Below, one piece after another: positions 12,039 through 50,482 of a stretch of DNA of 64,000 nt. The DNA comes from Armatimonadota bacterium (GTDB lineage Bacteria > Armatimonadota > Fimbriimonadia > Fimbriimonadales > Fimbriimonadaceae). The position numbers and the translations under genes were made by a program. The notes beneath the pieces are model-generated. The model did not search any database. It saw nothing but the letters and a program-made list of their open reading frames with translations, and was not told the DNA's origin. How positions within the stretch are numbered: position 1 is the first letter of the stretch; each line of letters opens with the position of its first letter. The DNA lies in contig JAFDWX010000001.1 in NCBI GenBank assembly GCA_018268255.1, positions 124,001 to 188,000 of the forward strand, read 5' to 3'.

Positions 12039-12164
12039 TGATCGTCTTGTCGTCTCATTGTGACCCCAGGACGGCAAAGTTTACAGGACCGACCGCACTC
12101 TCACCAGGTATTACCCACGCAAAATTGCCAGATTGAGCAAACGAGATTGTCTCGCTTCGTTCCT

Positions 12165-12187
12165 GTCGAAACGATTCGACTTATAAT
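12165..12187 (+). promoter_or_regulatory. LacI-type operator overlapping the promoter of the dockerin-like gene
   Basis: GTCGAAACGATTCGAC (12165-12180) is an inverted repeat with 6-bp arms and the central CG seen in many LacI-family operators. A perfect -10 box, TATAAT (12182-12187), follows after one base, so a bound repressor would block polymerase. A second short inverted repeat, CGAGA-N3-TCTCG, lies about 20 bases upstream (12141-12153). Confidence 0.6.
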
Positions 12188-12230
12188 ACTAAAGGTAACA
12201 CCGGCATCTAAGTCGGATAGGAGATCGAAC

Positions 12231-13463
12231 ATGCATCGAACACAACGAGGAGTTCTTTTTGCGGCCGCCGCGATCGGCATGGCCACCCCAACACTGGCAA
12301 TCGTCGAAGACTTTAACTCGGGTCTGAAGTCGACCATCCCCTGGACATATAACGTTCCTGGTCGAAGTCCCCTCAGCAGCGAGAACGCAGCTTTGCGCAC
12401 GTACGGAGCTGACTCGCTCGGCGTGAACTTCGGTGCTTTCCTCTATCAGCAATTCAACAACTGCGACAACGTTTTGAATCTGGCGTTCGCCAACGATGTC
12501 ACGCGCAATTGGGAATTCGCAGTTACCTTCCGTGCCAAATTCAGCCAACTTCAGCAGAATAACGATCCCTACGGCAGCGCGGGCATCGTGGTTGGCAGCG
12601 ATGTGGACAACTACATGATCATCTACATCGGCCGAGATGGCATCAACACCGGCTTGACCTTGGCTGGCGAGTTGAACGGCGGATGGTTCTTTGCCCGCGG
12701 CGATTATCCAGGTCCTTGGAACGATGACGAAGTCTACAAAATCAAGATCGTTCGACAGGTCCCGCGCGCTTCTGCAACACCGCAGTTCGATGTGTTCTTC
12801 TATCGCAATGGTGGTGGCGTCGGACCCTCGGGCGGATACATGTACAGCTTTGATTCGATGAACGGCCTGTTCTACGACACGCTAAACACCCTTGGTGGGA
12901 AATTTGTAGGAATCTTCTCCGATACTGCAGGCAACACCGACATTTCCGGTGCCAGTCGATCAGTCTTCTTCGACAAGATTGAGACCTCCCTGCCGATGGC
13001 TGGAGTAAAAACTCTTACCGGTACGTGCACCTTGGGAGATGCCGACCCTGCGTGGGCACCGACGGGAATGGTTGCGGATGTGAAGATCGTTCGCAACGGA
13101 CAGGTAGTTCAAGCAGAAGAGTCAACCCTCGGAGCAAACGGCGAGTTCACACTCACGACGGACTTGTCAGCAGGCCCTGCGGATATGTACGTCAAAGTCG
13201 CTCACTGGCTCACGAAGAAGGTGCCTCTCAACATCACCGCTACCGGACAGACCAACGTGAACTTCACGTTGCTCAACGGCGACGTCGATCGAGATGACAG
13301 CGTCACGATTTTTGACTACCTGGCGATTTCGGATGCGTTCGACTCCAATGCTGGCGATCCAACTTACAACTGGAATGCCGATCTGGACAAAGACAACTCG
13401 GTCACCATCTTCGACTATCTGATCCTGTCGACCAACTTTGATCTCACCGGCGATTCGTTCTAA
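12231..13463 (+). CDS. Secreted protein with dockerin-like C-terminus
   Basis: Exported protein of unknown role (410 aa). The signal peptide (hydrophobic AAAAIGMATPTLA) is followed by a beta-rich region (about residues 25-250) resembling concanavalin/LamG-type folds, a short carboxypeptidase-regulatory-like beta-sandwich (about 255-345), and a C-terminal pair of calcium-loop repeats (NGDVDRDDSVTIFDYLAIS, then DLDKDNSVTIFDYLILS) matching a type-I dockerin plan. The ATG at 12231 has GATAGGAG upstream; the frame is open further upstream but only through promoter sequence. It is probably repressed by the divergent LacI. Similar ends occur at 39.5 kb and 46.8 kb; no cohesin partner was seen in the window. 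Confidence 0.85.
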   Translation: MHRTQRGVLFAAAAIGMATPTLAIVEDFNSGLKSTIPWTYNVPGRSPLSSENAALRTYGADSLGVNFGAFLYQQFNNCDNVLNLAFANDVTRNWEFAVTFRAKFSQLQQNNDPYGSAGIVVGSDVDNYMIIYIGRDGINTGLTLAGELNGGWFFARGDYPGPWNDDEVYKIKIVRQVPRASATPQFDVFFYRNGGGVGPSGGYMYSFDSMNGLFYDTLNTLGGKFVGIFSDTAGNTDISGASRSVFFDKIETSLPMAGVKTLTGTCTLGDADPAWAPTGMVADVKIVRNGQVVQAEESTLGANGEFTLTTDLSAGPADMYVKVAHWLTKKVPLNITATGQTNVNFTLLNGDVDRDDSVTIFDYLAISDAFDSNAGDPTYNWNADLDKDNSVTIFDYLILSTNFDLTGDSF

Positions 13464-19464: not shown

Positions 19465-19941
19465 ATGGCAACCAAAGTCGATTCAAAAGTCGGCGTGAGT
19501 CTCATCGACCACGTCGCGATTGCAGTGCCACAAGGTCAGCTCGATGCGCACGTCGCGTTGTATGAACGCATAGGCTTTCGCGAAATCCACCGAGAGGAAG
19601 TCTATGGTGGAGACCAAGTTCGAGAAGTGCTGCTCCAAGTCGGAGACAGCGGAAACTTGATCCAGCTACTAGAGCCACTGTCGGCAGATTCGCCGGTTGC
19701 AAAACAGGTTGAAAAGCAAGGTGGCCGTCCCGGCATGGCCCACGTCGCGTTCCGTGTTGAGAACATCCAAGAGACGTTCGATGCATTGAAGTCAGACGGA
19801 TTCCAGATCATCGATCCTGCGCCAAGAGCAGGATCGCGCGGAACCACCGTCTTCTTTATGCACCCAAAGAGCCATTCGACAGACGGAGCACTCGGAGTGT
19901 TGTACGAATTCGTCCAGGAAAACGATCATGAAACTACTTGA
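19465..19941 (+). CDS. mce: Methylmalonyl-CoA epimerase
   Basis: Interconverts (R)- and (S)-methylmalonyl-CoA, linking the mutase (R isomer) to the transcarboxylase (S isomer). A VOC-fold metalloenzyme of 158 aa with metal ligands in the expected places: His in LIDHVAIAV, Gln in NLIQLLEP, His in MAHVAFRV and Glu in VLYEFVQ. It starts 9 bases after the 1.3S gene, and its 3' end overlaps the mutA start by 14 bases, so translation is probably coupled. Confidence 0.93.
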   Translation: MATKVDSKVGVSLIDHVAIAVPQGQLDAHVALYERIGFREIHREEVYGGDQVREVLLQVGDSGNLIQLLEPLSADSPVAKQVEKQGGRPGMAHVAFRVENIQETFDALKSDGFQIIDPAPRAGSRGTTVFFMHPKSHSTDGALGVLYEFVQENDHETT

Positions 19942-21856
19942 GGAATTTCCGCCGATCTCTACCCAGGAGTGGATGTCGGTGGTCGAGAAGGACCTCAAAG
20001 GTCAGGATTTTGAGAAGAAGCTCCTCAAAAAATCGCTTGACGGAGTGATCCTCAAGCCATTTTATCGAGCCGAAGATCTGCCGTCCAATCTGGCAGAGTT
20101 GGATCACCGCGGTGCGCGGCAATGGAACATGCGCGAAGAAATTCGCGATACCGAGATCGCATCTGCGAACGAACATGCTCTGCGCGCATTGGAGCGCGGT
20201 CCCGAAGAGCTGGCATTCTATACCTTTCCCATTGGTCCCCCAGTGCGAACGGCGGAGGATATGCGCAACCTCCTCATCGATATCTACATCGATGCTCTGC
20301 CGATCCACTTTTTGTGCGGTCCTCTTGCCTCTGCCACTTTCGGCCTCTTTGCCAACGAAGTCCGCGAGCGGAACATGAACCCAGCGTCCATTCGCGGGTC
20401 TGTGGATTTAGATCCGATCACCGACCGATGTGCAGGCTGGACGAAAGCTCATCTGGACTCATGGAAAAAGGAATTCCTGCTTCGGGTCAAAGAGTTTGAT
20501 AGCGAGCTTCCCAACTTCGGCACGTGGGTCGTCCGGGGAGCGTTGTTCGAGAAGGCCGGAGCAAGTTTGGTTCAGGAGCTGTCCTACTCCTTGGCTCTGT
20601 TCGCCGACTACCTAGCCGCGGCATCCGAGGAGTTTGAACCCGAAAAACTGGCCCATCTTGTCGGACGTTCGGAGATTCGACTCGGGGTGGGGACGCACTA
20701 TTTCCTGGAGATCGCCAAACTCCGAGCGATCCGAGTTCTCATTGCTCGGGTCATGGAAGCGGCGGGAATAGCGGGGCACGGTCCAAAGATCCATGCCGTG
20801 ACCACCAGCAGCAACAAAACGCTGTACGATCCGCACAACAACCTTTTGCGCGGCACGATCGAAGCGATGGCAGCGGCGATTGCCGGGGCCGATTCGCTCA
20901 CCGTGGCCGCTTATGACCAAGGCTATCACTCGCCCGACGAATTTAGTGTCCACCTCGCCCGCAACACGGAGACGCTCCTCAAAGAAGAAGCGCATCTCGG
21001 CAAAGTTGCCGACCCGTTAGCGGGCAGTTACACTGTCGAGAGACTCACCGCCGACTTAGTCGACCTTGCGTGGGAGTCGTTCCTGGTGATCGAGGATCAA
21101 GGCGGATTTGTTGAATCTTGGCGCGACGGACTGATCGGCAGCCAACTTCAGGTCATTCGCACCAAGCGAAACCTGCTCCTCAGCCAACGGCGACGAACTA
21201 TCGTCGGTACCACCGTCTATCCCAACACCCAAGAAACTCGACTCGATCAGGTCCAGCCTGCGCCTAGAAGTACGAAGCTCAGGGACTTGAGCGAAACGGA
21301 CCTACTTCAACTCAGCAAAGTCGAGTCGTTGGCCGACCTGCTGACCGATGAACCACTCGATTCGACTCCACTGGACTCCTATCGCCCGAGTTGGCCGTTC
21401 GAGCACCTCCGGCTTCGAGTGGAGCGGCACGCGGCGAAGGGCGGAAAACGGCCCAAGATTCTCCTCGCAAAATTGGGCGACCTGAAGATGCGCCAAGCCC
21501 GAGCCGCATTTTGCGGCGGCTTCTTCGGAGCCGGTGGCTACGAGATCATCGAAGAGAACTTCGACGCACTCAGCCAAGCAGCGATGAAGGCCATGGAACT
21601 CAATGCCGACGCGCTCGTTTTGTGTAGCTCTGATTCGGAGTATCAGGAGTTTTTAAAACCACTATCACTTTCGATACCAATCCTGATCGCAGGTAATCCG
21701 GTTGAAAGTCTCGAAGAACTGAAAGCCGCAGGAGCCAAGGACTTCATCCACGTCAAGCTCGAAATGCTCGAAACCCTCCATCGATACCACGAAATGTTCG
21801 GTGTGCCAGAAATTCCACTGGACGAGCCGCTCAATCCGAAGGCGGTGAAATCATGA
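19928..21856 (+). CDS. mutA: Methylmalonyl-CoA mutase small (beta) subunit
   Basis: Non-catalytic partner of MutB. The N-terminal TIM-barrel-like domain (about residues 50-470) is related to MutB but lacks its substrate-binding residues. The C-terminal cobalamin-like domain (about 500-630) has lost the DxHxxG cobalt-ligand motif ([14 protein letters not shown] instead), as is normal for small subunits. Its 642 aa are typical. The start lies inside the epimerase gene (14-base overlap) and the end overlaps mutB by 4 bases, consistent with 1:1 synthesis of a heterodimer. Confidence 0.93.
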
Positions 21857-23988
21857 GATTTAACTACCGTTCGATTCAGACTAGCTCTCCTGCGGAACCG
21901 ATGCCCAACCCATCGGCTTGGTCCACACCTGAGAACATCGATATCCAGGCTCGATATTCAGCAGACGATCTGCTCGAACTGGAGCATTTGGATTACGCAG
22001 CCGGATTGCCTCCGTACTTGCGAGGACCCTACTCCACGATGTACGCGATGCAGCCGTGGACAATCAGGCAATATGCCGGTTTTTCCACCGCAGAGGAAAG
22101 CAACGCGTTCTACCGCGCCAACCTCGCCATGGGCCAAAAAGGTCTGAGCGTCGCCTTTGACCTTCCGACCCACCGAGGTTACGACAGCGACCATGAGCGC
22201 GTAACCGGAGACGTCGGCAAGGCTGGAGTCGCTATTGATTCTGTCGAGGATATGAAGGTCCTTTTCGACCAAATTCCTCTAGACCAAATGAGCGTCTCCA
22301 TGACGATGAACGGAGCCGTTCTTCCGGTCATGGCGTTTTACATTGTCGCTGCAGAAGAGCAGGGTGTTTCACCCGACAAGCTCAGTGGGACCATCCAGAA
22401 CGACATTCTCAAAGAGTTCATGGTTCGCAATACTTACATCTATCCGCCGCAACCAAGCATGCGGATTATTGGAGATATATTTAAGTATTGCGCAGAAAAA
22501 ATGCCAAAATTCAACTGCATCAGTATCTCCGGATATCACATGCAGGAAGCAGGGGCAACAAGCGATCTGGAGCTCGCTTACACCCTGGCAGATGGACTGG
22601 AATACCTTCGTACCGGTATCCAAACCGGACTGAGCGTCGATGAATTCGCTCCCCGCATCAGCTTTTTCTGGGATATCGGCATGAACCACTTCATGGAAGT
22701 GGCTAAAATGCGCGCTGCCCGAGCTCTGTGGGCGAAGATCGTCAAGCAGTTCAATCCCAAAAACGCCAAGTCGATGGCGCTTCGCACTCACAGCCAAACC
22801 AGCGGGTGGAGTCTTACGGAGCAAGATCCGTACAACAACGTTATGCGCACGTGCGTCGAAGCCATGACAGCGGCCATCGGCCACACTCAGAGTCTGCACA
22901 CAAATGCTCTGGACGAAGCCATCGCACTGCCGACGGCATTCTCTGCGCGCATCGCTCGAAACACCCAGCTTGTGATTCAGGAAGAAACGGGCGTCTGCCA
23001 GTTCGTCGATCCCTACGCAGGATCCTACTACGTTGAGAGGTTGACCCATGATCTGATGCAGCGAGCCTGGTCGCTCATCCAAGAAGTCGAGGAACTCGGC
23101 GGGATGGCGAAGGCGATTGAGTCCGGTTTGCCAAAACAACGCATCGAAGAGGCTGCGGCTCGCAAGCAAGCGAGAATCGACTCGGGCAGAGACGTGATCG
23201 TAGGAATCAACCGGTTCCGGCTCGAACGAGAGGAACCCATTGAAGTTCTCAGCATCGACAACACCGCAGTTCGCGAAAAGCAGGTCCAGCGTCTCAAGGA
23301 TCTCAAGTCCAGTCGGGATGAGGCAAAGGTGCAGGAACTGCTGTCCAAAATCAAGGACTGCGCACAAACGGGCGACGGAAACCTCCTTGAGCTTAGTGTT
23401 CAAGCAGCCCGCGCTCGCGCCACGTTAGGTGAGATCTCCGAAGCCATGGTTAAGGTATTTGGACGCTATCAAGCAGTGGCCACAGCCTCTTCGGGAGTCT
23501 ATATCGCGGAGGCCGGAAAGACGAGTCAAATCGCGGAGGCTCGGGACCTCGCCGACAAGTTTGCGGAACTAGAAGGCCGGCGTCCGCGCATGCTGGTTGC
23601 CAAAATGGGCCAGGATGGTCACGATAGAGGCCAGAAGGCCGTTGCCACTGCCTTTGCCGATCTTGGCTGGGACGTGGACGTCGGACCTCTTTTCCAAACC
23701 CCGTCGGAAGTGGCGCAACAAGCGGCTGACAACGACGTCCATGTCGTTGGCGTGACCTCGCTTGCCGGAGGACACAACACACTCGTTCCCGAGTTGATCC
23801 AAGAGTTGGCAAAGATCGGCCGTGATGATATCCTTGTGGTCACGGGAGGGGTCATCCCCGCACAGGATTACCAGCATCTTTTCAACAGCGGTGTTGCGGC
23901 GGTGTTTGGCCCTGGCACAGTGCTTCCGGAGGCTGCAACCAAAATTCTGGATGCAATGATGAAGCAATTCGATCCTGTGCGTGCGTAA
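21853..23988 (+). CDS. mutB: Methylmalonyl-CoA mutase large (alpha) subunit
   Basis: Adenosylcobalamin-dependent isomerase converting succinyl-CoA and (R)-methylmalonyl-CoA. The TIM-barrel substrate domain (about residues 40-560) has [27 protein letters not shown] and the glutamate-mutase-like [13 protein letters not shown]. The C-terminal B12 domain (about 575-705) carries MGQDGHDRG with His590 as lower cobalt ligand, then [12 protein letters not shown] and GGVIPAQDY. Length 711 aa is normal. It is the last gene of the operon; the following gene starts 27 bases later with its own ribosome binding site. The chaperone MeaB is encoded far off at 49391. Confidence 0.97.
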
Positions 23989-31200: not shown

Positions 31201-32754
31201 ATGGATCTCTTAAACATCGAATGCCAGTTGACCCAAGCCCAGATGGCACGCTATCTGGCGGGTGAAAATTTGCCCGCCGATACGGTGAAACAACTCGAAC
31301 GGCATCTCGCGGAATGCGCCAATTGCCGTGACGCCGCAGAAGCCAAGAAACAAGATCTTGAACTCGCGGCGCAATCTCCGAGCACCCCAGCACCGGAACC
31401 AACACCCGAAATCACGCCAACCGCCACGCAGGCCCAGCCGGAGCCTGCAGCAGCAGCGGAATCAAGCGGTGGAAACCTATCGGATGACGACATCGCTGCA
31501 CTCTTCAACCAGATGGAGCCAGAACCTGTCGGTGTGGTGGCGGAGTCACCGCCAGAACCTGAAACCGAGCCTATTGTCGAAGACCTGCCCATTCCTTCGA
31601 CCTCCGACTCCATCTCCGATGACGATATTGCCAATCTCATAAGCGAAATGCACGAGGCAGAAGCTGCTTCGGCTTCGGCGGCACAGGAAGCAAGCCCCGC
31701 GGAATCGCCGACCCCGGCCACGCCCGCATCATCTCAACCGGTATCGAGCACTGCCGCTGAAAAACCAAAACAGGCCGAGCCAACTTCAGCTCCATCGCGG
31801 CCGATGGATCTCGGTGGTCCGTCCCCAAGAGATCTCTCTGAAGAGGATCTTGACAACATCTTTGCGGAGCTGGCAAGCGGCCCGAGCCAGTTCCTTTCGA
31901 AGCCTGAAGAACCTAAGGCATCCCCGCTCGATGACTTGCAGCCAGCGGAGGACATCCTCTCTCCAGACGAATTGGAAGCGCTCATCTCGGGATCGAGTGA
32001 CCCCGAAGAAGCCCGAGCTGCCAAAGCCTCAGAGGACCCACCTCCGGCACCAGTGCCGAGCCCCTCTCCCGCCGATAGTGCTATTTCGGACCCAAAGCCT
32101 TCCGAAGAGGATACAGAGGCGGAAGAAGTCCCGGCGAAAATGAGCTTCCTCACGGCGCTCAAGACCCTTCCATTACCCGTCGTCATCAAGCAGAACGCCA
32201 AGATGATCGCTCTTGCGGGCGGTCTTGCAGTCGTTCTCGCCACGATGAGTTTCATGATGAAAGGTGGTGGAGGAATCACCGGCGATAAGGTTTTGAAGCC
32301 AGGAGAGACTCTCGAAGCCGAAAAAGCAAGTTCGGAGCACGCCAAAGAGGATAGCAAGCCTGAAAAGGCACAAGCCAACCATGGCGAAACCAAGCCGAGC
32401 AAGGCTCAGGAGGAGGAACCGATCGATGCGTCGGGCGAGGATTGGAGTTCTGAAAATCCGGAACGCGACCACAACGAAGCAACTCATGCGACCAAAGAGG
32501 AGTTCGTCGTTGCCACGGGTGACGGGTCGGTAACCAAACACGAGTACAGCAACGGGAAGCCAGCGACCTCAGCCAACAAAAAGGCACTTCGACCCGCGCA
32601 ACCGAAGACTCGTACGAAACGCGTGAACAGGTCTCCCCAAAAACACAAAGCAAGTTCTGAAAAGCCCGCTGGAGGCACCAAGAAACTATCGGGAAGCGGC
32701 GTTACCGTCCACGACGAACATGGAGCCGGAAGCTCCGTAAAGGTTTACGACTGA
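31201..32754 (+). CDS. Zinc-finger membrane protein with four FliM-like motifs
   Basis: A 517-residue protein of unknown role. The N-terminus is an anti-sigma-like zinc finger (HLAECANC: H-x3-C-x2-C, about residues 36-43). A long Pro/Ala/Glu-rich disordered region (about 55-315) contains four evenly styled peptides: LSDDDIAALF (93), ISDDDIANLI (138), LSEEDLDNIF (212) and LSPDELEALI (253). They resemble the N-terminal CheY-binding peptide of FliM (LSQDEIDALL). One transmembrane helix (about 335-353) follows, then a Lys/Glu-rich and basic C-terminal tail outside the membrane. The ATG at 31201 is preferred over TTG at 31192. The next gene, a periplasmic STN protein, may be its partner. Confidence 0.75.
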   Translation: MDLLNIECQLTQAQMARYLAGENLPADTVKQLERHLAECANCRDAAEAKKQDLELAAQSPSTPAPEPTPEITPTATQAQPEPAAAAESSGGNLSDDDIAALFNQMEPEPVGVVAESPPEPETEPIVEDLPIPSTSDSISDDDIANLISEMHEAEAASASAAQEASPAESPTPATPASSQPVSSTAAEKPKQAEPTSAPSRPMDLGGPSPRDLSEEDLDNIFAELASGPSQFLSKPEEPKASPLDDLQPAEDILSPDELEALISGSSDPEEARAAKASEDPPPAPVPSPSPADSAISDPKPSEEDTEAEEVPAKMSFLTALKTLPLPVVIKQNAKMIALAGGLAVVLATMSFMMKGGGGITGDKVLKPGETLEAEKASSEHAKEDSKPEKAQANHGETKPSKAQEEEPIDASGEDWSSENPERDHNEATHATKEEFVVATGDGSVTKHEYSNGKPATSANKKALRPAQPKTRTKRVNRSPQKHKASSEKPAGGTKKLSGSGVTVHDEHGAGSSVKVYD

Positions 32755-32844: not shown

Positions 32845-33561
32845 ATGAAGAAGATCTTGATTGCACTGCTCGCGATGGCTGTGGGAACGTCAGCTTTTGC
32901 TGATCCAACGACACCAGACGGCACCACAAGTGGAACAAACAAAGTACCCGTCGAGAAGATGGTGGACACCAACAAGGATGGAACGGTTTCCATTCTTTCG
33001 AAAGGTAAGGATGTTCGCGATGTCCTAACCGACCTGTTCACCCAGGCCAAGAAGAATTTTGTCGTTGACAAACTCAGCCGAATCGACCTCTATCTGTCGC
33101 TCAACAATATTGAGTTTGACGAAACGCTTCAAATCATCTGTAAGCTGGCAAATCTCGACTTCGAGATTCAGAACGGAATTTACTACATTACAAAATTCGA
33201 TCCCAACAAAAAGCAGATCAAGGATCCTGAACCCGGGAAGACCGGTATGGGAACCCCGACTCAGCCCAAGTACGTTGGCAAGCTCTCTCCAGTTGTATTG
33301 GACAAGAAGGTGACCGTGCGATACAACAAGACGGATTTCCGTGAGGTGATCAAAGGTATCGCGCGACAAGCCGACATTTGGATCGAGGTGGATGCCAATC
33401 TTCCTGAGCGAAAGGTCGATGCGTATCTCATCGAGACCTCTGTCAAACAGAGCTTGGATATGCTCACCAGCGCGCTCGGTTTGGAGTACAAATTCACCGA
33501 GAATATGTCGATCATGATCTACAAGCCCCAGAAGAACGAAGTTAAAATCGCGGACAACTAA
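32845..33561 (+). CDS. Periplasmic protein with two STN/secretin-N-like domains
   Basis: Exported 238-residue protein. After the signal peptide (KKILIALLAMAVGTSAFA) come two copies of a short beta-alpha-beta domain: residues about 50-115 (KDVRDVLTDLFTQAKKNFVV..LSLNNIEFDETLQIICKLANL) and about 155-230 (TDFREVIKGIARQADIWIEV..VKQSLDMLTSALGL). This is the plan of the STN and secretin N-domains of PilQ/GspD and TonB receptors. There is no secretin barrel, so it may be an accessory or scaffold for a type IV pilus-like machine, or it may bind another envelope complex. The ATG at 32845 follows AAGGAC. It sits 90 bases after the zinc-finger membrane gene and ends at a strong terminator. Confidence 0.75.
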   Translation: MKKILIALLAMAVGTSAFADPTTPDGTTSGTNKVPVEKMVDTNKDGTVSILSKGKDVRDVLTDLFTQAKKNFVVDKLSRIDLYLSLNNIEFDETLQIICKLANLDFEIQNGIYYITKFDPNKKQIKDPEPGKTGMGTPTQPKYVGKLSPVVLDKKVTVRYNKTDFREVIKGIARQADIWIEVDANLPERKVDAYLIETSVKQSLDMLTSALGLEYKFTENMSIMIYKPQKNEVKIADN

Positions 33562-36726: not shown

Positions 36727-36818
36727 CAGGGGTGCTAGATTCCCGAACGCCTGTTGATCTCAAAACTTTTCGCAGCGCAGATAGGCCAAATTCGGCACTC
36801 TATTTTGTCACTCTCCTG

Positions 36819-36834
36819 TACAATGAATGTGGAG
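36819..36834 (+). promoter_or_regulatory. -10 box and RBS of the large secreted PD40 protein gene
   Basis: TACAAT (36819-36824) is a plausible -10 box, and GGAG (36831-36834) lies 9 bases before the ATG at 36844, which begins a clear signal peptide. Confidence 0.4.
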
Positions 36835-36843
36835 CAACTCTTT

Positions 36844-39660
36844 ATGGGACCTTCGCGCAAAATAGCATCCATTGTCCTTCTTCTTATGCCGATACAATTA
36901 CTGGCTGCATTCGGGGATCTTTCGCCCATTAATGTCCCCATACTCAATACACCAAACGGCTCATCGACTGATCCAGCACTCTCTGCCGATGGAAGAGTTT
37001 TCGCATTCGCTTCAAAAGCGACAAATATTGTCTTTAATTCAGGCGCTTACTATCTCATTTTTGCGCAATCGGTCGATACAAATTCAATTCACCTCGTTAG
37101 TACTGGGGACAATCCTCCAAGTGGAGATTCGCGAAACCCCTCGATCTCCGCTGACGGAAGATATGTAGCATTTCAATCAACGGCTGGCCTGGTGGCGGGA
37201 ACCAATAATAAAAAGTCCCAGATCTATGTTCGGGATCTCTACCTAAGACGGACATATTGCGTCTCGAAGACGGCTTTGGGAATACTGGCAAACTCAGACT
37301 GTTCACTGCCAGCAATCTCCGCCGATGGTCAGAAAGTAGCTTTCCTCTCTTATGCTTCAAATCTAGATGGCACTGGGTCAACCCGAGCTGTTTTTGTGGC
37401 TGATCTCCCCCTGGGGACAGTTGAACTTGTCAGCAAGAACCTGCAAGGCTTACGATCAACAAGTGACGTGGAAAGCCCTTCGATCAGTGCCGACGGGTAC
37501 AAGGTTTCTTTTGTGTCATCTGCCAATGACTTGGTGGCTGGCGATGCAAATGGCTTTGCAGATGTTTTTGTGCGTGACCTACTAACCAAGAGCACTACCC
37601 TCGGGAGCCTAAACTCCGATGGCACCCAAATACAGGCATTGAGCTTTGCGGGTCAGCTGTCTGGAGATGGCAAACATTTGGTATTCATGACATCTGCAAA
37701 GCTAGCCTCAGAAGACAGGAACTTTCTTGATTGGTATATTCGCGACCTAACAAGCGGAGCGCTAAAGCTAGTGACAGCAACGAGTGCTGCCATATCCCTA
37801 GAGGGGCCAGCTACGACCTCCAGAAACGGAAAGAGAGTCATGTTTACGGGTGCTTCTCAGAATGTGACAAATGGCGATGCCCAAGGCAATGATACATTCT
37901 GCGCAGACTTGGAAAATAACAGTATCGTAAAAGTGAGCAGCAATGGCCTAGGAATAGGAACCCAAGGCACCACAGATGTTACGAGAAGATTTGCCTCTGA
38001 CGATGCCGCAACACAGGCAATATTCCTGACAAGTTCTAAGGATTTTGATGGAAAGGTAAGCGATTTTCAAGATATCTACTTTCGAGACCTTGGATCTGGA
38101 ACCACAAGAAGACTGTCGATTGCCCCCGTCCCGCGTCCTTACACGGGTGTCGGCATTCCGTCTTCAGATGGCAATAAAGTCCTATTAAGTGCATTGGGAA
38201 TCTGGACAAGCGACCACCAGGAGCCCGTTGATGTTTTCACTGATGAAGCAGGAAAACATATTAACACTTACTTTCTAGACTCCATTTCCGATGACTGGAC
38301 GAGGCTGATGATCTATTCGGGAAGTGGTTCAGGTTCTGTCCCGGGTGAGCAAATCGTCACAAAGGATCTACCAAGCGGCCAATGGAAAGTCGCATCTTCT
38401 TCCAGCCAAGGTGCCATCGCAAACTCCTTCATTTACGATTGGGGAATGACGTCGGATGGGAAGTATGGGATTTTTGTCAGTTCAGCCAATAACTTGGTGC
38501 CAGACAACTTGGGCGGAATGACCGGAGCGTACTTGAAGGATCTCTCCACTGGGGCCATCTCCTTTGTTTCGAGGAATGCCGATAATCAAATTGCCAATTA
38601 CTACTCAAGGTGTTGCGCAATATCGAAGACTGGCCGCTATATTGCATTCACTTCTCCTGCTACCAACTTAACATCGGAGATTGCTACCAAGTATGAAGAA
38701 GTTTTTATTAAGGATCTCGTGCTAGGTTGGGTAAAGAGAGTTCCCCCCGATCAACTCCCAGCAAGCAATAAGTACTATCCGATGTTCAGTCGATCCGAGA
38801 GGTTTGTCTACTTTGGAATTGGCAATGACCCTTATGGTGGGTCAGGAAGTGTTTATCGTTATGACATGTTGAACAACAAGGTTCAATACTGCTTCTCGTG
38901 TAGTTACACGGATCGCTTTATGGTCGCGCTTGGGCAATCTGACAGATATGTCTATTTTGAAACTGTGGCAAAGCTCACTGCTGAAGATACAGATACCAAG
39001 TCCGACATATATTTGTGGGATAGTCTCCTCGGCACATATCAGTTGGTTGACTATCGTTCTCCAGGGAAGAAGTTTGTCTATGCTTCGCGCCCTGTACTTG
39101 ATCCTACCGGGAGCTACCTAGTTTTCCTCGCTCCAGCCTTTGATCCAAACGGCTATGAAGCTGCGGGCTCAGTTCTCTATCGAATGGATGTTCGCAGGTT
39201 CACTCTAACTGGCGTTCTTTCGCTTGCCGATTACGCAAAATCCGGTGAGTTGATGTCAGTAGAAGTGTATAAGAACGGCGAGTTAGCTGAACATGCCGTA
39301 GCGAATTTAACAAGCGATTTCAATTACGAGACGGTGATCAATACTACTGGAGACCTGGTTCTCAAGTTCAAATTTAGAAAGTGCCTCGTCAAAGCTGTTG
39401 CAATTCATTCCGAGCCTGGGACTTCGGTGATAAGGAACGTAACCTTGGTTAATGGCGACGTGGATGGTGATAACGCCGTTACAATCTTTGATTATCTGGC
39501 AATTTCAGACTACTACGGTAAGCGATCCAAGGATTCTGATTGGAACACTATTGGCCCCAACGGTGTAGCACCAGCGGACGCCGACATTTTCTCTGACGAG
39601 AGCGTGGAATATTCTGACTATCAGATACTACTCTCTAACTTTGATCGAGTAGGAGACTAA
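36844..39660 (+). CDS. Large secreted PD40-repeat protein with dockerin-like C-terminus
   Basis: A 938-residue exported protein. The signal peptide (KIASIVLLLMPIQLLAAFG) is followed by about a dozen TolB/PD40-type blades of the form SADGxxVAFxSxAxxL...DIYVRDL, for example SISADGRYVAFQSTAG, AISADGQKVAFLSYASNL and SISADGYKVSFVSSANDL, which should fold into one or two beta-propellers. A short beta-sandwich comes next (about 800-865), then a degenerate dockerin-like end (NGDVDGDNAVTIFDYLAIS... and a second, weaker loop). The ATG at 36844 was chosen for the signal peptide. The gene is visibly richer in A+T than its neighbours, which may mean recent transfer. Possibly surface-displayed; ligand unknown. 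Confidence 0.85.
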   Translation: MGPSRKIASIVLLLMPIQLLAAFGDLSPINVPILNTPNGSSTDPALSADGRVFAFASKATNIVFNSGAYYLIFAQSVDTNSIHLVSTGDNPPSGDSRNPSISADGRYVAFQSTAGLVAGTNNKKSQIYVRDLYLRRTYCVSKTALGILANSDCSLPAISADGQKVAFLSYASNLDGTGSTRAVFVADLPLGTVELVSKNLQGLRSTSDVESPSISADGYKVSFVSSANDLVAGDANGFADVFVRDLLTKSTTLGSLNSDGTQIQALSFAGQLSGDGKHLVFMTSAKLASEDRNFLDWYIRDLTSGALKLVTATSAAISLEGPATTSRNGKRVMFTGASQNVTNGDAQGNDTFCADLENNSIVKVSSNGLGIGTQGTTDVTRRFASDDAATQAIFLTSSKDFDGKVSDFQDIYFRDLGSGTTRRLSIAPVPRPYTGVGIPSSDGNKVLLSALGIWTSDHQEPVDVFTDEAGKHINTYFLDSISDDWTRLMIYSGSGSGSVPGEQIVTKDLPSGQWKVASSSSQGAIANSFIYDWGMTSDGKYGIFVSSANNLVPDNLGGMTGAYLKDLSTGAISFVSRNADNQIANYYSRCCAISKTGRYIAFTSPATNLTSEIATKYEEVFIKDLVLGWVKRVPPDQLPASNKYYPMFSRSERFVYFGIGNDPYGGSGSVYRYDMLNNKVQYCFSCSYTDRFMVALGQSDRYVYFETVAKLTAEDTDTKSDIYLWDSLLGTYQLVDYRSPGKKFVYASRPVLDPTGSYLVFLAPAFDPNGYEAAGSVLYRMDVRRFTLTGVLSLADYAKSGELMSVEVYKNGELAEHAVANLTSDFNYETVINTTGDLVLKFKFRKCLVKAVAIHSEPGTSVIRNVTLVNGDVDGDNAVTIFDYLAISDYYGKRSKDSDWNTIGPNGVAPADADIFSDESVEYSDYQILLSNFDRVGD

Positions 39661-48686: not shown

Positions 48687-49382
48687 ATGCGAACGATCAT
48701 CGCGATCGGAGGTGGAACGAGCTTTGAAGATGGGACCGGGCTTCCCATTCATCGACACCTTTTAGACCGTACGGGAGCGGCAAAACCCAAGATCACATAC
48801 ATTCCGACAGCCTCCTCGGAGAACATCGAAGGGATGCTCATCGCTCGCATCGGGTTCCAGTCGCTTGGTGCCACTGTCCAGGTGCTGTCCTTGTTCAGCC
48901 TTCCCAGCAACGATCTCATAGACTGGATGGCCGATAGCGATCTGATTTATGTCGGTGGCGGCAACACCAAGAGCATGTTAGCGTTGTGGAAGGAATGGGA
49001 GGTGGATACTGCTCTGAAACACCACTATGATCAAGGCAAGCTCATCGCAGGCGTAAGCGCTGGCGCCAACTGCTGGTTCGAAAGCTGCAGCACCGACTCC
49101 TATTTCGGGCCCTATCGCGCCCTGCCCGCTCTCGGTTGGATCAAGGGGAGCTTTTGCCCGCATCTTGAGAGCGAACCCGAACGCCGACCAACGCTGGAAA
49201 CCTTCCTCAGCACAGGTGCTATGGCCAGTGGATACACAACCACAGATGGAGCGGCCCTGGAGTTTCACGATGAGAACCTGGTTGGGGCGATGGGATGGTT
49301 GGACTCAGCCAAAGCCTTCCGCACGTTCGCTGGCACTCCGCCTCGCTTTGAGCCGATCGAGCTCACTTGGCTCCACCGATAG
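48687..49382 (+). CDS. Peptidase S51 (dipeptidase E/cyanophycinase-like)
   Basis: Serine peptidase of the S51 family (231 aa). The nucleophile is S124 in AGVSAGANCWF. The family motif YVGGGNTKSMLALW and an N-terminal TIIAIGGG strand are present; the acidic substrate-binding loop is CPHLESEPERR. By length it resembles E. coli PepE, cleaving Asp-X dipeptides, more than cyanophycinase (about 270 aa or more). The ATG at 48687 is preferred over a TTG at 48678. Its stop at 49380-49382 lies 8 bases before the likely meaB start. Confidence 0.85.
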   Translation: MRTIIAIGGGTSFEDGTGLPIHRHLLDRTGAAKPKITYIPTASSENIEGMLIARIGFQSLGATVQVLSLFSLPSNDLIDWMADSDLIYVGGGNTKSMLALWKEWEVDTALKHHYDQGKLIAGVSAGANCWFESCSTDSYFGPYRALPALGWIKGSFCPHLESEPERRPTLETFLSTGAMASGYTTTDGAALEFHDENLVGAMGWLDSAKAFRTFAGTPPRFEPIELTWLHR

Positions 49383-49390
49383 GATTTGCC

Positions 49391-50482
49391 GTGCCGGATA
49401 CCGAAAACCCAGATGGGATGATCCAAAAATCCGCGATGGCGGAACTGCCCGGAATCGCGCAACCCTCAACGCTCAACCCCAGGCTGGTTGTCAAACGCCG
49501 ACGCAGCGACTCGCCCGAGAGCATCTTCGAGCAGCTCCGAAATGGAGATCGCATCGCGCTGGCACGTGCGATCACCCTATGCGAAAGCACCCATCCCGTC
49601 CACGCTTCCCACGCTGAAGTCATTTTGGACTTGGCATTGAAGCACGCGACCCCTTCACGAAGGTTCGGCATAACCGGCATCCCTGGCGTGGGCAAAAGCA
49701 CACTCATCGAAGCGCTCGGCAACGAGGTGCTCGCCGATGAACGAAACAAGCTCGCGATCTTGGCCATCGACCCGACCAGTGCATACTCCCACGGCAGCAT
49801 CTTGGGTGACAAAAGCCGGATGCCAACCTTAGCTGTCCATCCGCGGGCATTCATTCGCCCAAGCCCGACCGGCGGCCACCTGGGTGGAGTCGCACATCAA
49901 ACCAGAGAATCCATTTTGCTTTGCGAAGCCGCCGGCTACAACGTTATTTTTGTTGAAACGGTAGGAGTTGGCCAGAGTGAGTTCATGGTCCGCGAGATGG
50001 TGGATTGCTTCTTGCTCCTGATCCTTGCTGGCGCCGGAGACGAACTCCAAGGGATCAAGCGCGGTGTCATGGAGATGGCGAACGTCTTGGCTATCACCAA
50101 ATGCGATGGGGATAACATCATCCGCGCGAAGATCGCTCGCCAGCAGGTGCTCAACGCTCTCCACCTTTCGGCGGACCCAGGTCGAGGTCTTCCGCCCGTC
50201 ATTTTGACTTCTGCTGTGTCCAAATCCGGCATTCAAGACCTCTGGACAGAGTTGCTCGAGTTCTGCATTCTCGACGAAGCATCGGGCCGATTGTCGGCTC
50301 GGAGGACCGCGCAAGCGGTCCACTGGATGCAGGATCTCGTCCGGGAAGGTGCTCTCGAACGGCTTAGCCGCAAGCCGGGCTTCGATGCGCTGGAGCAGAA
50401 CCTGCGAGCAAGTGTCACGACAGGCGAACTCACTCCGCGATCTGCAGCTCAGCAACTGCTGAATTTCGCCACGAACCGCTGA
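49391..50482 (+). CDS. meaB: Methylmalonyl-CoA mutase-associated GTPase MeaB (ArgK family)
   Basis: G3E-type GTPase that guards methylmalonyl-CoA mutase: it gates loading of adenosylcobalamin and ejects damaged cofactor. The Walker A motif is GIPGVGKST (about residues 96-104), followed by AIDPTSAYSHGSILGDKSRM, the switch region FIRPSPTGGHLGG, FVETVGVGQSE (DxxG-like) and TKCDGD (base recognition, TKxD). The GTG at 49391 (AGGA 6 bases before) is favoured; TTG 49367 and ATG 49418 are alternatives. It lies far from mutAB at 20-24 kb, but its role ties it to that operon. A C-terminal dimerisation arm is present. Confidence 0.93.
   Translation: MPDTENPDGMIQKSAMAELPGIAQPSTLNPRLVVKRRRSDSPESIFEQLRNGDRIALARAITLCESTHPVHASHAEVILDLALKHATPSRRFGITGIPGVGKSTLIEALGNEVLADERNKLAILAIDPTSAYSHGSILGDKSRMPTLAVHPRAFIRPSPTGGHLGGVAHQTRESILLCEAAGYNVIFVETVGVGQSEFMVREMVDCFLLLILAGAGDELQGIKRGVMEMANVLAITKCDGDNIIRAKIARQQVLNALHLSADPGRGLPPVILTSAVSKSGIQDLWTELLEFCILDEASGRLSARRTAQAVHWMQDLVREGALERLSRKPGFDALEQNLRASVTTGELTPRSAAQQLLNFATNR

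Follow-up and report, generated by a model that had tools for sequence, protein, structure and literature searches.

Two neighboring genes of an Armatimonadota bacterium (family Fimbriimonadaceae) code for a zinc-finger membrane protein and a partner with two STN domains, and are probably associated with flagella, a strength that is our judgement and not a computed figure. We tentatively propose, at somewhat below an even chance, that they specify a flagellum-associated transmembrane pair in which the cytoplasmic linker of the zinc-finger protein has gained FliM-like docking for CheY, mainly through a single peptide (peptide 4) that would bind CheY. The window – the whole stretch of DNA that was analyzed – is 64,000 nucleotides long (positions 124,001 to 188,000 of contig JAFDWX010000001.1, assembly GCA_018268255.1), and the features of the pair within it are as follows.

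31201..32754, plus strand: zinc-finger membrane protein, 517 aa, the 5′ gene of the pair (open reading frame, Pfam, orthologues)
31222..31329, plus strand: zf-HC2 anti-sigma-type finger, aa 8-43 (Pfam, orthologue alignment)
31477..31506, plus strand: peptide 1, LSDDDIAALF, aa 93 (moderate FliM likeness)
31612..31641, plus strand: peptide 2, ISDDDIANLI, aa 138 (FliM score within background)
31834..31863, plus strand: peptide 3, LSEEDLDNIF, aa 212 (FliM score within background)
31957..31986, plus strand: peptide 4, LSPDELEALI, aa 253, nearest the membrane (best FliM mimic)
32191..32259, plus strand: single transmembrane helix, aa 331-353 (AlphaFold, hydrophobicity, conserved motif among orthologues)
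32701..32751, plus strand: hairpin-like C-terminal tail, aa 501-517, ending SSVKVYD (AlphaFold, orthologues)
32845..33561, plus strand: partner, 238 aa, with a signal-peptide-like N-terminus and two STN domains (Pfam, fold comparison)
32980..33201, plus strand: STN domain 1 (closest folds: N0 domains of secretins)
33283..33534, plus strand: STN domain 2 (closest folds: the C-terminal domain of a FecR-like anti-sigma factor, and secretin N0)

The original prediction for this region, made from the sequence alone, described a zinc finger at one end of the protein, four peptides in a disordered region and a transmembrane helix after them, and this architecture was recovered throughout, with all four peptides encoded in frame in the linker at the predicted places. 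The finger matches zf-HC2 in Pfam (E 9e-6, passing the curated cut-off), and its C8 and H35-x3-C39-x2-C42 residues are invariant in 35 aligned orthologues; no other Pfam domain scores above cut-off in this protein, and the FliM middle and SpoA domains are absent. Pro, Ser, Ala and Thr make up 52% of the linker, and Asp and Glu a further 21%. An AlphaFold model built on the alignment of 35 orthologues is confident for the finger alone (pLDDT above 90), with lower confidence in the final hairpin, whose SSVKVYD ending has a conserved orthologue counterpart of the form IxVYDxxGxP. Most of the linker is modeled at a pLDDT of about 40-60, and peptides 2 and 3 form short helices in it; Foldseek with this low-confidence model returned nothing usable. 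The type of zinc finger, together with the lysines preceding the helix, suggests a cytoplasmic location for finger and linker.

The zinc-finger and STN genes are adjacent and on the same strand in 56 of 58 family loci, and the other neighbors vary: the commonest, an upstream methyltransferase (THUMP-like in the window), adjoins it in 11 loci. Recurrent neighbors named by Pfam are the THUMP-like methyltransferase, TatD, PdxS-type SOR/SNZ, rhomboid and RecA, with no sigma factor or flagellar gene among them, and no sigma factor was recognized when the sigma-sized upstream genes were inspected by eye; an adjacently encoded cognate sigma factor was therefore rejected, none having been recognized among the neighbors in the loci inspected. 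The pair as a whole matches no Pfam or NCBIfam model searched, and it is also present in order families f2, f3, f4 and f5 and in f19. An enlarged form of the pair accompanies a retained FliM in one reduced genome of 1.5 Mb (G063, locus L091). In the partner, the best match of STN domain 2 (Z 11.4) is the C-terminal domain of a FecR-like anti-sigma factor, and PupR is near as well.

The association with flagella comes from a comparison of the STN partner (detected with profile A2 at E below 1e-20) with FliM in 85 family genomes, using an E threshold that was set after the values had been seen, these forming two groups (below 1e-24 and above 1e-13). The zinc-finger gene adjoins the STN gene in the inspected loci, but its fast divergence rules out a profile as clean, and co-occurrence was therefore scored on the STN gene. 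Among genomes at least 90% complete, 60 have both genes, one has FliM only, none has STN only and nine have neither; the STN partner is thus in 60 of 61 FliM-positive genomes and in none of the nine FliM-negative ones (Fisher p 1.5e-10, ignoring relatedness). The corresponding counts are 65, 1, 0 and 10 at 85% completeness, and 66, 2, 4 and 13 when all genomes, some very incomplete, are included. On an RpoB tree the genomes lacking both genes are a subclade of genus g6 (possibly more than one event), g19 and g24, and because these lie in separate places there have been at least three apparent co-losses of the STN partner and FliM, still a small number of independent events behind the co-occurrence. 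In family f5, genus g47 also lacks both.

The sole FliM-positive genome at least 90% complete with no strong STN match (G035) may reflect an assembly gap or a real exception; in family f2, one 85% complete genome (G176) has STN without FliM, and the FliM of G048 matches in two pieces (C1:1971952-1972517), perhaps through a frameshift or a fault in the assembly. FlgM, unlike the STN partner, is retained in six of the nine FliM-less genomes that are at least 90% complete, and so close a tracking of FliM is therefore not common to all flagellar regulators; those keeping FlgM after loss of FliM include G009 and other FliM-less g6 genomes. Replacement of FlgM by the zinc-finger protein was rejected, FlgM being present in this genome and in most of the family.

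The four peptides had been predicted to match the FliM N-terminal form, which holds for peptide 4 and weakly for peptide 1, but not, by FliM score, for peptides 2 and 3. The score is a BLOSUM average against 23 FliM N-termini from the same order as this genome, and the background consists of 168,635 12-mers from 538 proteins around orthologous loci in relatives. Peptide 4 (ILSPDELEALIS) outscores all 168,635 of these, whereas 20 background 12-mers lie above peptide 1, 231 above peptide 2 and 375 above peptide 3; a PSSM scoring with unsuitable pseudocounts also ranks peptide 4 first and peptide 1 second. For comparison, DILSQSEIEALL opens the FliM of this genome and DILSPEEIEALL some FliMs from its order, and the peptide 4 region reads DILSPDELEALI. 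The pattern [LI]Sx[DE][DE][IL]xx[LIM][LIFM], which is post hoc in having been derived from the peptides themselves, matches four times in the linker, at most once in any of 100,000 linker shuffles, and never in the 538 neighboring proteins of relatives. Only one to five of ten third codon positions are common to the copies, which speaks against recent DNA duplication, an origin that was rejected. These comparisons confirm the repetition, but they mark only peptide 4, and weakly peptide 1, as specifically FliM-like.

Profile and structure-database searches bear on how specific this likeness is. A linker-motif profile run against the own genome matched only the four sites themselves. A FliM-peptide profile found a match in a FliM-sized frame in each of the 11 genomes covered, and its sole non-FliM match below E 0.01 in them was the zinc-finger orthologue of the sister species G001 (E 0.0011); against the own genome FliM alone passed E 10, and peptide 4 did not. 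PDB sequence searches with three of the peptides gave no FliM; among them, the sister's peptide returned TAL-effector repeats and p53 activation-domain peptides, and the peptide 4 query gave nothing useful. The form LSPxEhxxhh is a generic capped amphipathic helix used by many proteins, and the FliM likeness therefore does not name the partner.

Conservation of the motif, whose absence from orthologues would have counted against the original prediction, fails across the family, though not within this genus. Peptide 4 is kept in the sister species as LSPEEIEAML (ILSPEEIEAMLN), in a conserved, membrane-proximal block of a linker that diverges fast; the sister gene is broken by contig ends, and conservation can be read there for peptide 4 but not for peptides 1 and 2. 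No clear motif is present in the congener G002. Genus g12 includes one genome (G038) with three LSADQIAAMM-like copies and another (G039) with one IDPDEIADLF, and no motif was found in about 50 further family orthologues or in order-level ones, confining the motifs to this genus (g1) and one related genus. The STN-partner tree places g1 and g12 in one group with g14, which has no motif, at a support (88/84) below the level treated as firm; a single gain with losses would fit, and so would two gains. Searching genome contigs with the zinc-finger protein gave no orthologue match, while the STN alignment found six loci, with no new congener and one distant Spirochaetaceae match. Most orthologues have the flagellar association without the motif, so the core function of the pair must be something other than CheY docking.

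A candidate receiver for such a peptide is encoded in the same genome, as the original prediction had asked to be checked. There are 17 receiver domains, among them one stand-alone CheY whose gene cluster also encodes CheC, CheD, an HDOD protein, CheB, CheR and CheX; this CheY aligns over its length, across 118 residues, with Thermotoga maritima CheY (E 2e-51) and is of the Thermotoga type. Contig C5 encodes FliM and FliN, and CheY is accompanied in this genome by a FliM with the canonical peptide. The claim that the region has no flagellar genes stands for those window proteins that were scanned, but flagellar and chemotaxis genes are present elsewhere in the genome. The HDOD protein of the chemotaxis cluster (G000 contig C7, L121:6323-7183) has ISTDDLDEII near its C-terminus, in the pattern of the linker peptides. 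The window itself has dockerin-type matches in two proteins (12060-13463 and 36754-39660), the second of which also has PD40 propeller repeats and a dockerin match below cut-off, and two adjacent methylmalonyl-CoA mutase genes (19928-23988) with a MeaB-type GTPase gene (49367-50482) about 25 kb away.

Taken on its own, docking of CheY by peptide 4 would seem to us an evenly balanced question, a judgement that was not computed. Four working docking sites are improbable, again as a matter of judgement; the interpretation originally offered, a multivalent receiver scaffold, is supported in part: docking through peptide 4 is plausible, and the four-site form, unsupported by the scores, would at present count as weakly supported.

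Other readings of the pair account for parts of this evidence. Its zf-HC2 match and weak RsrA and ChrR matches below cut-off, the closeness of STN domain 2 to the FecR-like C-terminal domain and PupR, and the binding of STN domains to periplasmic domains of inner-membrane proteins (PMC11637429) would all suit a split cell-surface-signaling device, with the finger a working anti-sigma for an ECF sigma from another locus and the STN partner a periplasmic sensor of FecR type that has become its own polypeptide. The linker peptides would then be unrelated to CheY and serve as contacts for sigma, as cues for a protease or as helix caps. We regard this as unlikely, since neither the recurrent neighbors nor the sigma-sized upstream genes yielded a recognized sigma factor, and the link to FliM is not predicted unless the sigma controls flagellar genes, where FlgM is already present. 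The co-occurrence with FliM would also fit a flagellar accessory of a structural kind, in which the zinc-finger protein tethers a periplasmic ring of STN domains and its linker peptides bind some other helix receptor, for example another motor part or the protein itself. STN/N0 domains form rings in secretins and injectisomes, to which the folds here match, and the pair is kept in orthologues with no motif; however, no recognized flagellar genes lie beside it in the loci inspected and the specific FliM likeness of peptide 4 is left unexplained, making this distinctly unlikely.

The peptides could also be accidental, with drift under a helix-capping preference in an acidic low-complexity linker yielding LSxDE-type strings that have no dedicated partner. 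The ordinary FliM scores of peptides 2 and 3, the p53 and TALE segments of matching form and the many orthologues with no motif all agree with this, but four pattern matches against at most one in the shuffles, the retention of peptide 4 despite fast linker divergence, and the separate set in the related genus g12 make it improbable.

Under the tentatively favored reading, a flagellum-associated pair with CheY docking, the zinc-finger protein would be the inner-membrane half of a two-protein envelope module, presumably with its finger and acidic linker in the cytoplasm, one helix across the membrane and a long periplasmic tail, the terminal hairpin of which probably meets the co-encoded periplasmic double-STN protein. 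FliM-like peptides would have been gained in the cytoplasmic linker in this genus, with a related form in one other genus. The membrane-proximal peptide 4 would bind phosphorylated CheY as does the N-terminus of FliM, so that CheY-P might be brought to the module or buffered near the membrane, and the weaker copies may add avidity.

The near-universal presence of the pair in FliM-bearing family members, and its absence where FliM has been lost, point to a previously unrecognized flagellum-associated module in Armatimonadota, a phylum of which few species have been cultured. Should peptide 4 bind CheY-P, the protein would give chemotaxis signaling a receptor that is not part of the switch complex, one that evolved by placement of a FliM-like peptide in a membrane protein. 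We consider it rather unlikely, though worth stating, that CheY-P has, in some Armatimonadota, a second output besides the motor, in which a membrane-anchored docking protein of a lineage-specific flagellar module couples the chemotaxis state to a periplasmic STN protein.

The closest known counterpart of peptide 4 is the CheY-binding N-terminal peptide of FliM, LSQxEIDxLL (PMC5677366, PMC9126983), with which it shares I-L-S, a Glu, the hydrophobic register and a disordered setting; FliM and a Thermotoga-type CheY are both encoded in the same genome. Peptide 4 differs in being internal, within an inner-membrane zinc-finger protein without FliM domains, in the changes of Q to P, I to L and the last L to I, and in having further weaker copies in the linker. 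The N-terminal C..HxxxCxxC finger followed by a single transmembrane helix is reminiscent of zf-HC2/ZAS anti-sigma factors of the RsrA and ChrR type, although here no adjacent sigma was found, the linker is of about 270 aa, and the NCBIfam matches are below cut-off. The cell-surface-signaling anti-sigmas FecR, PupR and FoxR (PMC11637429) similarly combine a cytoplasmic regulator-type domain, one transmembrane helix and a periplasmic STN module, whereas here the STN module is on a separate downstream protein with two STN domains, and no adjacent TonB-dependent transducer was noticed. STN domain 1 has the fold of secretin N0 domains (PilQ, GspD, InvG), but the partner is a short soluble protein without a secretin pore domain. 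Finally, FssF of Caulobacter is comparable as a flagellar accessory linking chemotaxis and motor, but is a FliN homologue (PMC11580411), whereas the protein described here is a membrane zinc-finger protein.
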